This document shows, one piece after another, positions 6,388 through 10,181 of a stretch of DNA of 51,627 nt. A program made the translations under genes and the position numbers. The first letter of the stretch is position 1, and each line of letters opens with the position of its first letter. The DNA is taken from the NCBI GenBank assembly GCA_947630085.1, contig CANRGP010000004.1, forward strand, positions 1-51,627, in the 5' to 3' direction. The notes beneath the pieces are model-generated. The model searched no databases. It saw only the letters and a list, made by a program, of their open reading frames with translations, and was not told the DNA's origin. Origin of the DNA: an uncultured Lachnospiraceae bacterium (GTDB lineage: Bacteria > Bacillota > Clostridia > Lachnospirales > Lachnospiraceae).

Positions 6388-8175
6388 TCATCCGGCGGCC
6401 ACATCCTGAAACTGGGCCCGGTACAGATGAAAATACGCTCCCTGCTTTTCCAGAAGTTCCTCATGGGTCCCGGATTCCAGGATCCCCTGGCCGTCTACCA
6501 CAAAGATCCGATCCGCTTTCCGGATGGTGGAAAGACGGTGCGCGATCACAAACGACGTCCTGCCCGCCAGAAGCGCTTCTATCCCGTTCTGGACCATGAT
6601 CTCGGTTCTCGTGTCGATGCTGGATGTCGCCTCGTCCAGGATGAGGATCCTGGGTCTTGCGATCAGGGTCCTGGCAAACGCCACCAGCTGGCGCTGTCCG
6701 ACGGACAATCCGCTTCCGTTCTGTATCACCGTCTCATAACCGTCCTCGAGCAGTGCGATAAATTCATGCGCCCCGACGGCGCGGGCCGCCCATTCCACCT
6801 CCTGATCGGTCGCATCCAGTTTTCCGTACCGGATATTGTCGGCAATGGTTCCGGAAAACAGATAGGTCTCCTGCGTCATGATCCCCATCTGCCCGCGCAG
6901 GCTCTCGGTCGTCACATCCCGGATCGGGTACCCGTCGATGCGGATCTCGCCGGACGTTACATCGTAAAAGCGGCTGAGAAGATTGATGATCGTCGTCTTT
7001 CCCGCGCCGGTCGCGCCTACCAGCGCCACGGTTTCTCCGGGCATCACACGAAAGCTGACGTCCCGGATCACAGCCCTGTCCGGCTCGTCCGGATAAGCAA
7101 ACGTCACATGGGAGAACTCCACCTCCCCGGAGATTTCCGGGAGCGGCTTCGCTCCGGGAGCATCCGCGAGCTCCGGCTCCGTGTCCAGGATATCAAAGAT
7201 CCGCTCCGCCCCGGAGATGTTGTTGACGATCCTGTTGTAAAAGCTGGCAAGATTGCGGATCGGGGACCAGAACATACTCAGATAAGTGGCAAAAGCCAGA
7301 AACGTCCCGATCTGCGTATCTCCCATTCCCAGGATGCGGATCCCGATATAGTAGAGAAGAAAGCTCCCGATCCCCCATACCGTATCCACGGTAGGGCTGA
7401 AAGCATCCGCCAGCTGTACCGCCCCGATAAACGCCTTCTCATGCTCGTCCAGTATTCTTCCGAACGTCTCCTCCGACTCCTTCTCCGCACAGAAGCTCTG
7501 TACCACACGGATCCCGGAGAAATTTTCGTGTGAATAGGCGCTCATATTGGAATTCTTTTTTCTCACCGCCATCCATCTTCCGTGTCCCACGACCATGACC
7601 ACATACATTCCCAGAAGGAGGATCGGCATCGTGGCGATGGCCGACATGGTGAGGGCCGGGCTTTTTGCCAGCATAATAAGAAGAATGGCGGTTACCGTGA
7701 TCAGATCCGGTATCAGAGTCGTCACGCTGTCCGACATCATGCCCTGCAGGGAATTCACATCTCCGATGATCCGGGCCAGGATCTTTCCCGTCGGTCTCCC
7801 GTCAAAAAAGCGCAGGCTGAGCGTCTGAATATGGCGGTACAGTTCCTCCCTTATCTTCAGAACGATCTCGTTTGAGATCCGGGCCATCATGATCATCCGT
7901 ATCCTGACTCCCGCGATCCAAATCCCGTTCAGGGCAAGGGCAAGCAGGCAGAGAAGCAGAAGCTCCCTGATGTTCCCCTCGGGAACGCTGACGTTTACCG
8001 CTCTCTCGATCAGCAGCGGGTTGACCAGGACGACGGATACGGTCACCGCGACGACCAGGAGAACCAGCGCGATCTTTTTCTTATACGCAAACAGATATCG
8101 ATACAGCCGAAGCAGCGTCTCCCTCTTGGGGACGTCTCTGGAAGATTCGTCTTCACGATAGGAATTTACAGACAT
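6388..8175 (-). CDS. ABC exporter half-transporter with the consensus ATP site
   Basis: A 595-residue type IV ABC exporter subunit: a transmembrane domain (about residues 30-320) fused to a nucleotide-binding domain. Walker A is GATGAGKTT (about residue 385). Walker B is ILILDEATSS with the catalytic Glu intact (about residue 511), and the switch His lies in IAHRLST. The signature motif is the divergent LSVGQ. Its start overlaps the end of the upstream partner gene by 10 bases, so the two are translationally coupled. Divergent signature here plus a Glu-to-Asp change in the partner is the hallmark of heterodimeric multidrug exporters such as TM287/288 or BmrCD. The substrate cannot be read from sequence. 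Confidence 0.9.
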   Translation of the reverse strand: MSVNSYREDESSRDVPKRETLLRLYRYLFAYKKKIALVLLVVAVTVSVVLVNPLLIERAVNVSVPEGNIRELLLLCLLALALNGIWIAGVRIRMIMMARISNEIVLKIREELYRHIQTLSLRFFDGRPTGKILARIIGDVNSLQGMMSDSVTTLIPDLITVTAILLIMLAKSPALTMSAIATMPILLLGMYVVMVVGHGRWMAVRKKNSNMSAYSHENFSGIRVVQSFCAEKESEETFGRILDEHEKAFIGAVQLADAFSPTVDTVWGIGSFLLYYIGIRILGMGDTQIGTFLAFATYLSMFWSPIRNLASFYNRIVNNISGAERIFDILDTEPELADAPGAKPLPEISGEVEFSHVTFAYPDEPDRAVIRDVSFRVMPGETVALVGATGAGKTTIINLLSRFYDVTSGEIRIDGYPIRDVTTESLRGQMGIMTQETYLFSGTIADNIRYGKLDATDQEVEWAARAVGAHEFIALLEDGYETVIQNGSGLSVGQRQLVAFARTLIARPRILILDEATSSIDTRTEIMVQNGIEALLAGRTSFVIAHRLSTIRKADRIFVVDGQGILESGTHEELLEKQGAYFHLYRAQFQDVAAG

Positions 8176-9899
8176 GGCTTCACCTCCTCCGGTCTTTCAT
8201 ACTGCGCTGCAAAAGTGTCATAATATCTGCCCTTTTGGGCCATCAGGGATTCGTGATCCCCTCTCTCGGCGATCCGCCCGTTTTCCATGACGATGATCTC
8301 GTCGGCATGGCGCACGGTGGATATGCGGTGGGCGATGATGATCTTCGTGGTTTTCTCCAGCCGGTTGATCTCCTTCCACAGTTCATGCTCCGTCTCCATA
8401 TCCAGAGCCGATGTGGCGTCGTCAAGGATGAGGATCGGCGCTTGCTTCGCCAGGGCTCTCGCAATGCTCAGGCGCTGCTTCTGTCCGCCGGAAAGCCCCA
8501 CGCCCCGCTCGCCGATCACCGTCTCATACCGGTCGGGGAGCCTGTCGATGAATTCAGCCGCGCCGGCCCTCCCGGCCGATTCGGTCATCCGTTCTTCATC
8601 TATGTACCCCCGGTTTCCGATGCGGATGTTCTCCCGGATCGTGTCCGAAAAGAGGAACACATCCTGCATGACCACGGAGATGTTCCGGCGCAGGCTTTCC
8701 GTATCCAGATTTCGGATATCCACATCATCCAGAAGGATCCTTCCCTCATCCACATCATAGAAGCGTTCGGCCAGGTTGACGACGGTCGTCTTGCCGGACC
8801 CGGTCATTCCCATGATCCCCAGGGTCTTCCCCTCCTCTACCGAGAAGCTGACATTCTTCAGAATGGGACGTCCCTGGAGAGAGAAGCCCACGTTTTCAAA
8901 GGTGAGCCTTCCTTTTGCCCTCCCCATGGGGACGGCGCCGTCCGGGGAAAGGATCTGCGGTTCCTCGTCCAGGATACGGTTGATCTTTTTGTTGGAAGCC
9001 ACCGCGGCCGCCATCGTATTCGTCACCCATCCCAGTATCTCCATGGGCCACACGATATTATTGGCGTACTGGATAAAGGTACCCAGCTGCCCAAGGCTTA
9101 TCCGGCCGCGGATCACAAATATCCCGCCGACAGTCACGCAGAGAAACAGCATCGTCTTGGTCAGAAACGAGATCCACGGGTCGTATCTGGCCATGGTCCT
9201 GGCCAGATTCATGTTCAGTTCATAATATTTCTTATTGTGCGAGCGGAATTTTTCGATCTCGTATTCCCCACGGAAAAACGCCTTTACCGTCCGGACGCCG
9301 CTTACATTCTCCTGGGCCACCGCATTCAGCCTGGCGTTTTCCTCGCTGATCTCGTCATAGACCCGGTCGAGCCCTCTCTCCAGGCGGATGGCCACATAGC
9401 CCACGACAGGCATAACGCAGAGCGGGATCAGCGTCATAATCGGATCAAGCCGGATCATCTGCCACAGGACCATGACGGTATGGACCAGGGCTTCCACACA
9501 TAAGATCCCCACATATCCCATAGCCTCCCATATCCGTTCCGCATCCTCCTTGATCCTTGCCATCAGCTCCCCTGTATTGTTCTTCTCGAAAAATCCCATA
9601 TGCATCTTCTCGATATGGGAAAACAGCTTTCTCCGGATGTCCTCGGCGATCTTCACGCCGATGCAGTCGGATATGAACTCCTGGCCGTACTTAAAGATCC
9701 CTTTTCCGATGCTGACGAGCAGGAGCATAACGAGAAGTCCCATCAGGATCTGCCCATGTCCGCCCACGATCACATCGTCAATGATCCGCCCTACGATCCT
9801 GGGGCCCTGCAGATCGAGAAATACTCCGAGATACAGGCACGCCAGCGCCAGCATATAGTAAAATCTGTATTTAAAAAAATATTTTCCAAGTCCTTTCAT
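8166..9899 (-). CDS. ABC exporter half-transporter with a degenerate ATP site
   Basis: A 577-residue half-transporter with six expected transmembrane helices in its first 300 residues and a C-terminal ATPase domain. Walker A is GMTGSGKTT (about residue 364) and the signature LSGGQ is canonical. Walker B reads ILILDDATSALD, so the catalytic Glu is replaced by Asp, making this the degenerate-site partner. The switch His is kept (IAHRIST). ATG at 9899 follows AGAGAGGAAAT. It is first in a two-gene operon, 22 bases downstream of an intrinsic terminator that closes a leader with its own small ORF, so expression is probably controlled by attenuation. Drug export is likely but inferred. Confidence 0.9.
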   Translation of the reverse strand: MKGLGKYFFKYRFYYMLALACLYLGVFLDLQGPRIVGRIIDDVIVGGHGQILMGLLVMLLLVSIGKGIFKYGQEFISDCIGVKIAEDIRRKLFSHIEKMHMGFFEKNNTGELMARIKEDAERIWEAMGYVGILCVEALVHTVMVLWQMIRLDPIMTLIPLCVMPVVGYVAIRLERGLDRVYDEISEENARLNAVAQENVSGVRTVKAFFRGEYEIEKFRSHNKKYYELNMNLARTMARYDPWISFLTKTMLFLCVTVGGIFVIRGRISLGQLGTFIQYANNIVWPMEILGWVTNTMAAAVASNKKINRILDEEPQILSPDGAVPMGRAKGRLTFENVGFSLQGRPILKNVSFSVEEGKTLGIMGMTGSGKTTVVNLAERFYDVDEGRILLDDVDIRNLDTESLRRNISVVMQDVFLFSDTIRENIRIGNRGYIDEERMTESAGRAGAAEFIDRLPDRYETVIGERGVGLSGGQKQRLSIARALAKQAPILILDDATSALDMETEHELWKEINRLEKTTKIIIAHRISTVRHADEIIVMENGRIAERGDHESLMAQKGRYYDTFAAQYERPEEVKPCL

Positions 9900-9920
9900 A
9901 TTTCCTCTCTTTCAGAACGC

Positions 9921-9949
9921 AAAAAAGCCGCAGTTGCACAAACTGCGGC
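9921..9949 (-). terminator. intrinsic terminator inside the ABC exporter leader (attenuator)
   Basis: Minus-strand stem GCCGCAGTT/AACTGCGGC (9 bp, arms 9949-9941 and 9935-9927) with a 5-base loop, followed at once by six T residues (9926-9921). It lies between the leader ORF stop (9980) and the ABC start (9899), so any transcript from the promoter at 10099-10127 must read through it to express the exporter. Confidence 0.88.
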
Positions 9950-9979
9950 AGATATTCTCACGACAAATACGCAGAGAAC

Positions 9980-10057
9980 CTACAGCGGGGCAATCCATGC
10001 AACGACTATGCCGTATTCGTTTGTCAGTCTCATCTTATCGGTTCTCAGCATCGTCAT
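9980..10057 (-). CDS. 25-residue leader peptide of the ABC exporter operon
   Basis: A 26-codon frame (ATG at 10057, TAG at 9982-9980) behind an excellent ribosome-binding site, AAAGGAGG at 10073-10066 with 8-base spacing. The product starts MTMLRTDKMRL and ends VVAWIAPL. It lies wholly within the leader, between a strong promoter and the terminator at 9921-9949. Small leader ORFs of this type precede antibiotic-responsive exporters and ABC-F genes (for example bmrB before bmrCD in Bacillus subtilis), where a stalled ribosome prevents termination. The peptide itself matches nothing I recognise. Translation is inferred from RBS quality and placement. Confidence 0.72.
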   Translation of the reverse strand: MTMLRTDKMRLTNEYGIVVAWIAPL

Positions 10058-10098
10058 CGCACTTGCCTCCTTTCGTTATATTCGATGTACTGTAAGCT

Positions 10099-10127
10099 AC
10101 TATACCTCATCCGGAAAATTTTGTAAA
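10099..10127 (-). promoter_or_regulatory. strong sigma-A promoter of the ABC exporter leader
   Basis: Minus-strand TTTACA (10127-10122), exactly 17 bases, TATAGT (10104-10099). Predicted transcription starts near 10092, about 20 bases before the leader-ORF ribosome-binding site. Confidence 0.75.
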
Positions 10128-10181
10128 GAGCTTTTTCTGTTTTTCCGAAATTCTCCCGGAGCCTGCGCAGCGGCTCCCCTT

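Follow-up and report, generated by a model that had tools for sequence, protein, structure and literature searches.

How the expression of an ABC exporter may be adjusted by the short leader preceding its genes is the question raised by this locus of an uncultured Lachnospiraceae bacterium. The DNA stretch analyzed here (the window, 51,627 nucleotides) belongs to a draft genome of 111 contigs and 2.06 Mb, and carries on its minus strand, in the order of transcription, a promoter, a leader ORF, a terminator and two overlapping genes for ABC half-exporters; other genes on the same strand precede the leader in a row. The promoter, recognized from the sequence and by comparison of orthologs, consists of a −35 box TTTACA (10127–10122) and a −10 box TATAGT (10104–10099) separated by 17 nt. 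It is followed by the Shine-Dalgarno (SD) sequence AAAGGAGG (10073–10066), by a leader ORF of 25 codons (9980–10057) that encodes MTMLRTDKMRLTNEYGIVVAWIAPL and ends with its stop codon, and by an intrinsic terminator that begins 30 nt past this stop and comprises a 9-bp hairpin (9949–9927, −14.2 kcal/mol) and a run of six T residues (9926–9921). An earlier note, made from the sequence alone, had listed the promoter, the 25-codon ORF, the 9-bp terminator with six T residues and the ABC start, all of which are confirmed in the sequence. The SD of the first ABC gene (9904–9910, minus strand) is located outside the terminator hairpin.

Translation and matches to solved exporters identify both gene products as ABC exporter subunits. 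Subunit 1 (8166–9899, minus strand, 577 residues) contains the sequence LILDDATSAL, with a Walker B motif ending in LDD, and subunit 2 (6388–8175, minus strand, 595 residues), whose gene overlaps the first one, contains LILDEATSS, with the motif ending in LDE; one catalytic Glu of the pair is thus substituted. A single substituted catalytic Glu is a feature of heterodimeric ABC exporters, and the heterodimeric nature proposed by the earlier note is borne out by these adjacent half-transporters. Among the best 60 solved exporters listed, BmrC and BmrD are not the best match and are outscored by other bacterial heterodimers and by P-glycoproteins, so that the pair is not assigned as orthologous to BmrCD. 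The nearest named records of the first ABC gene, with 49–55% identity, come from Lachnospiraceae or Clostridiales metagenome-assembled genomes and from Kineothrix alysoides.

Comparison with relatives reveals that the leader accompanies the exporter. Matching ABC exporters occur in all 26 genomes of the genus, a true ortholog in only six of them including that of the window (69–100% identity). In the five genus genomes with upstream DNA, AAGGAG, an ORF of 25–31 codons and the near-identical hairpin GCYGCAGTYTGTGNNACTGCRGC with its T run recur; this hairpin pattern is found once per genome in 5 of the 26 genomes, always before the exporter gene, the other 21 lacking it. At the level of the family, an ortholog was detected at E ≤ 1e-150 in 70 of 397 genomes. 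A leader ORF of 23–54 codons (median 29) is present in 67 of 74 ortholog upstream regions, and 64 of these 67 leaders are followed by a terminator starting at most 140 nt past the stop codon; no leader was found in the remaining seven regions, two of which lie near a contig end. The 67 leaders were picked semi-manually, with seven dropped, and one locus without a gene start was left out; an automatic choice of the ORF, blind to the motif described below, retrieved an ORF in 69 of the 74 regions and agreed with the manual choice in 64. The six closest orthologs, that of the window among them, all have TTTACA-17-TATAGT upstream of their leader, and the best promoter match reaches at least 10 of 12 bases in 45 of the 67 leaders, compared with 2% of shuffled sequences. 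Several orthologs (five loci) carry a second strong terminator hairpin after that of the attenuator. Among nine loci from named records a leader could be read in eight, with the ORF chosen by its best helix, and the ninth is cut by a contig end; the two weakest helices of this set, Kineothrix alysoides among them, score −9.7. According to the earlier note, a lack of conservation of the ORF or terminator among close relatives would speak against a bmrB-like attenuator, in which transcription of the heterodimeric exporter genes depends on the leader ORF; the conservation of both elements, together with the helices described below, supports such an attenuator. No Rfam 15 family matches the window at the gathering threshold, nor positions 9880–10140 at E ≤ 1.

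The strongest helix of the leader is missing from the list of the earlier note. The leader SD with its spacer is complementary to bases close to the end of the ORF that it serves. In the window (minus strand), segment A (SD, spacer and start codon, 10054–10070) would pair in this way with segment B (the end of the leader ORF, 9987–10005) as an anti-antiterminator, on the grounds of duplex energies, codon shuffles, covariation and masked folding. Pairs seen in the family include GAGGTAA/TTACCTC, GAGGCAG/CTGCCTC, GAGGCAA/TTGCCTC and GGTAAGCTT/GAGCTTGCC. The exact complement of a leader's own GAGGNNN lies inside its ORF in 32 of the 64 leaders that have GAGG (3 of the 67 do not), against a mean of 0.47 (maximum 4, 500 runs) for codon-shuffled ORFs and of 16.1 (maximum 28, 5000 permutations) for permuted SDs; these permutation figures, like those below, overstate independence because the orthologs are related, the regions nevertheless coming from many genera (63/334). 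Blind ORF choice leads to the same result (32 of 65 exact; permuted mean 15.8, maximum 24; codon-shuffled mean 0.5, maximum 3). Both strands change together: leaders with the SD GAGGTAA (n = 33) contain TTACCTC in 24 cases and CTGCCTC in one, those with GAGGCAG (n = 16) contain CTGCCTC in seven cases and TTACCTC in none. Since the exact motif is read in three phases (24, 6 and 2 of the 32 leaders), selection acts on the RNA. Moreover, when B is defined from its other partner alone (segment D, see below), A:B scores −11.95 for own pairs versus −9.07 ± 0.29 (minimum −10.15) for permuted A, and pairing of A with the ORF beats 95% of codon shuffles in 52 of 64 leaders.

The exact heptamer is absent from the other 32 leaders, and the window also lacks it. 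Its A:B helix is made of stretches of 9 bp (with G-U pairs), 5 bp and 2 bp, separated by bulges of 3 nt and 1 nt in this order, and runs through the start codon, GGCAAGTGCGATGA pairing with TCGTTGCAT, followed by the bulge GGA and then by TTGCC. Its energy is −20.9 kcal/mol when the final 26 bases of the ORF are offered, and −23.3 kcal/mol when the ORF is offered from base 25, versus −10.7 ± 2.5 kcal/mol for codon shuffles, none of 2000 of which reach this value. Ungapped scoring had overlooked this helix (score 13, with a fraction of 0.28 of shuffles as good), which is revealed by the gapped duplex.

Segment B has a second partner. The end of the ORF pairs with the 5' arm and loop of the terminator, in many cases across a single mismatch, for instance U.U; in the window (minus strand) this arm is segment D (9941–9949), next to the loop (9940–9936), and its alternative partner, assigned from the hairpin pattern, is segment E (9927–9935), the 3' arm. 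When B is defined from A alone, B:D averages −10.78 versus −7.74 ± 0.31 (minimum −8.82) for permuted D (5000 permutations, n = 64). Both A:B and B:D thus beat permuted partners, so that B is common to two exclusive partners, D:E being the terminator, and the covariation of alternative helices called for by the earlier note is observed beyond the permutation controls for A:B and B:D. Taken leader by leader, no more than 25 of the 64 have an ORF:D pairing better than 95% of codon shuffles, and the window's B:D is not significant by itself, 16% of codon shuffles being as good (60% for L035, 29% for L036).

The pairings of the earlier note fared unevenly. Its helix between codons 4–6 and the post-stop sequence is present as complementarity in the window (−7.9 kcal/mol) and is not conserved over 64 leaders (own −2.44, permuted −2.56); the same holds for the helix between its ORF segment, here B' (10009–10025, minus strand), and the post-stop segment (9962–9971, minus strand), with −10.9 kcal/mol in the window and −4.40 for own versus −4.87 for permuted pairs over 64 leaders. 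The third one, between B' and the terminator arm, reaches −13.5 kcal/mol and exceeds permutation (−8.30 versus −6.80 ± 0.29), a result limited by the overlap of this ORF segment with segment B in many relatives; in the folding models described below B':D may act as an auxiliary antiterminator. The short CTGCG/CGCAG pairing is present by sequence.

The influence of ribosome position was modelled with partition functions for the RNA ending with the terminator loop, before E, the ribosome being masked at set places. The mean number of expected D:B pairs over 64 leaders is 2.85 in the free RNA, 7.98 with the start masked, 4.29 with codon 6 masked and 0.94 with the stop masked. Compared with the free RNA, a masked start adds more than one D:B pair in 51 of the 64 leaders and diminishes D:B in two others; swapping D between leaders reduces the start-masked value to 4.43, the own D being better in 46 of 64. 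For the window, the free RNA has 15.8 expected A:B pairs, which drop to 0 in the start-masked state in favor of 5.4 B:D and 3.1 B':D pairs, B' thus accounting for about a third of the pairing of D. With codon 6 masked B:D amounts to 0.1, and with codon 12 or the stop masked there is no B:D, B':D being 1.05 at the stop. At equilibrium the terminator of the window wins in all five folded states, the start-masked one included (D:E 8.75 of 9 pairs); readthrough must therefore be kinetic, decided during transcription. B ends a median of 18 nt, and at most 33 nt in 60 of 64 leaders, before the leader stop, and is so near to it that a ribosome terminating there would occlude or disrupt B.

The element is thus probably a ribosome-operated transcription attenuator placed before the exporter. 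Sequence comparison shows its helices, their covariation and exclusivity, and a conserved promoter and leader, and the masked folding is consistent with an anti-antiterminator under control of ribosome position. Segments A, B, D and E would form three mutually exclusive helices, A:B, B:D and D:E. On a leader without ribosome A:B would form, B would be taken, and D:E would stop the RNA polymerase before the exporter; under normal translation the ribosome would run over B to the stop codon and again leave D for E. A ribosome held on the start or the first few codons would cover A and free B, which could then catch D during transcription, block the terminator and allow transcription of the exporter genes. 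The signal would be the occupancy of the leader start, the peptide itself not being read. B:D presumably forms fast enough during transcription, and we infer that the natural signal is given by drugs arresting ribosomes at the start codon (lincosamides, pleuromutilins, tetracycline and the like), which the pump would then export.

The same device precedes other genes. A search of the 397 genomes for the pattern GAGGTAA..ATG..TTACCTC yielded 38 places in 35 genomes, 17 before the exporter, 8 other leader-like and 13 not leader-like; since the reversed pattern used as a control matched 36 times, places were judged by ORF and terminator, and 10 of the 21 non-exporter places were examined (8 leader-like, two not). 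A covariance model (CM R1) built from 17 leaders listed 66 places in 54 of the 397 genomes. The 20 examined by eye comprise one exporter, six RsgA-like, three GNAT and two PF09818 targets, two leader-like places without readable target and six that are not leader-like. The model misses the window's own copy, which belongs to another sub-class, and in 291 genomes of the class it matches only three (E ≤ 0.001), all from the window's own family; this absence outside the family is weak because the model was built on one sub-class. In total, the device was found before ten RsgA-like GTPases (PF03193), of which one (L218) clearly carries a GNAT domain fused to its N-terminus; it also precedes three genes for GNAT acetyltransferases, of which one is frameshifted and two are intact, a further, distinct pair of ABC exporter genes and two PF09818 ATPases. 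Six genomes were checked for RsgA, and each has a higher-scoring RsgA in addition to the attenuated one, the latter being a second copy. The attenuator-like leaders before the two PF09818 (ABC_ATPase) genes read MKG..LPRE.., and one of the best-scoring attenuators precedes an ORF of 94 residues (L182, 414–698). At a further locus (L179, 200–2657) the attenuator is followed by a 54-codon ORF with a strong SD, a promoter-like site and the gene of RqcH (NFACT); RqcH, which seems to have a promoter to itself, was downgraded as a direct target because the start of its gene lies 616 nt past the leader stop, with the SD-bearing 54-codon ORF and the promoter-like TTGTCA-17-TATACT in between. An Rfam scan of 10 relative loci retrieved only a T-box past this RqcH gene (L179, 2728–2932) and a THF riboswitch (RF01831) downstream of an RsgA-like gene (L177, 1636–1738), both away from the leader. 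In the genome of the window a single RsgA exceeds the cut-off and a single RqcH is present; inspection by eye of the 260 nt before each revealed no such leader. The 21 leaders before other genes repeat the A:B helix (own −15.0, permuted −12.8 ± 0.45, minimum of 5000 permutations −14.55), with covarying extensions past a mismatch, for example GAGGT-A-ATCATT with AATGAT-G-ACCTC.

Stalling specific for the peptide is an improbable alternative, yet the one that survives best: the nascent leader peptide, which ends in VVAWIAPL, would together with a drug or metabolite arrest the ribosome at a defined codon or the stop codon, in the manner of TnaC or ErmC. The WIAPL end of the window's peptide resembles TnaC-like ends, and a stretch EYxxxTS is common to RsgA- and GNAT-type leaders. 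Many of these leaders have E-Y followed after a few codons by T-S, and the leader of the window contains NEYGIVV. Against this reading, the window's peptide was not found in the 299 family genomes searched: the best match besides the window has an E value of only 0.066. Matches at E ≤ 1 occur in 45 of the 299 genomes, 38 of them at the same part of the query and in open frames of 739–833 codons; three matches in short frames are not leaders. The peptides of relatives differ whereas the RNA pairing is kept, no sequence is common to the leader peptides beyond the part encoded by the RNA motif, and this motif is read in three frames; the C-terminal motifs ITS and ACL at first suggested a stalling peptide, an idea rejected because it is the RNA that is conserved, with varying reading frames. 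Furthermore, a ribosome at the stop of the window's leader leaves no B:D and little B':D in the folds above. The suggestion that the peptide represents a new leader-peptide family is accordingly abandoned, the conserved unit being an RNA read in different frames.

The start-occupancy attenuator has further to be distinguished from a reading still less probable, in which the pairing merely silences leader translation or is an SD-like by-product, the terminator ends the upstream operon and the exporter has a second promoter. The row of same-strand genes upstream of the leader would fit, and an anti-SD-like sequence could prevent spurious initiation. However, a promoter lies upstream of leader and terminator in relatives too, D covaries with B, and unrelated genes follow the device: in the 15 target loci with a readable gene, which begins 66–271 nt past the leader stop, the interval between leader and gene contains no promoter-like site exceeding shuffles, and a promoter-like site is present upstream of the leader in 14. 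A sensor of amino-acid starvation of the trp type is very unlikely, for although any starvation holding ribosomes early would also trigger the switch, the leaders share no run of one codon by eye and the identifiable targets are not biosynthetic. Equally slight is the probability of translation attenuation, instead of or besides transcription attenuation, with the switch mainly freeing the exporter SD: cplR and vmlR combine both modes in the available descriptions (PMC10201436, PMC9226507), but here the terminator hairpin ends before that SD is reached.

The general logic of the attenuator proposed here is already known, as far as the accessible accounts of bmrB, vmlR and cplR/lmo0919 go. In the available text on bmrB of Bacillus subtilis (PMC4191407), a leader ORF with predicted anti-antiterminator, antiterminator and terminator precedes the heterodimeric exporter genes bmrCD and is induced by lincomycin and other ribosome-targeting drugs, the lincomycin induction requiring leader translation. 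The window's element shares with it the leader ORF, the three-helix logic and the type of target; by that description, the leader coding region of bmrB contains the terminator, and what the anti-antiterminator does was left unclear, whereas here the terminator lies past the stop and the putative anti-antiterminator is formed by the leader's own SD and ORF end, backed by covariation. With vmlR of B. subtilis the same uORF-dependent logic is shared; as described in the text available, its uORF is a tripeptide in the bulge of the anti-antiterminator hairpin with an SD predicted to be single-stranded before it (PMC9226507), compared with ORFs of 23–54 codons and an SD inside the anti-antiterminator in the present family. 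At family level the element has what characterizes attenuators of the bmrB/vmlR kind, a leader ORF with SD, a terminator, an antiterminator exclusive with it and, judged by sequence and masked folding, an anti-antiterminator controlled by ribosome position. The clostridial uORF of cplR (Clostridioides difficile), considered together with Listeria lmo0919/VgaL, responds to lincomycin and retapamulin and is sequestered by a 5' hairpin, anti-SD elements being named in a figure legend; as far as described, it differs by its three codons, its ABC-F gene and a terminator that also hides the main SD (PMC10201436). The toiL uORF of the Escherichia coli topAI-yjhQ operon senses several drug classes, some via arrest at the start codon, and, unlike what is proposed for the window's leader, acts, in the text available, on translation and Rho-dependent termination (PMC12121999). 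A 2010 survey predicted premature terminators before ABC transporter genes; one case is the leader of an operon for multidrug export in two lactobacilli, with an attenuator-like terminator as in the window, although the part of the survey available mentions neither a leader ORF nor SD pairing in that case (PMC2965389). The present leaders differ in that the ORF is long and peptide-independent, that its SD itself serves as the anti-antiterminator strand, and that the device is used before several translation- or drug-related genes. No description of this self-anti-Shine-Dalgarno layout and its shared use was found in the open-access full texts searched, a scope outside which most subscription papers lie.

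On balance, we lean toward regarding these leaders as a class of peptide-independent attenuators responding to start occupancy, in which the SD is its own anti-antiterminator strand and which would form a Lachnospiraceae cis-regulon without protein regulator, comprising drug export, a second RsgA-like GTPase, GNAT acetyltransferases, PF09818 ATPases and perhaps RqcH. Its RNA signature, a leader SD complementary to its own ORF end followed by a terminator whose 5' arm pairs with that same ORF end, can be used for gene finding, and the genes found under the same switch (the second RsgA, the PF09818 ATPase, GNAT and small ORFs) are candidates for coping with stalled ribosomes. The switch would explain how a family-wide exporter of gut-associated bacteria may respond to translation-arresting drugs without a dedicated sensor protein.
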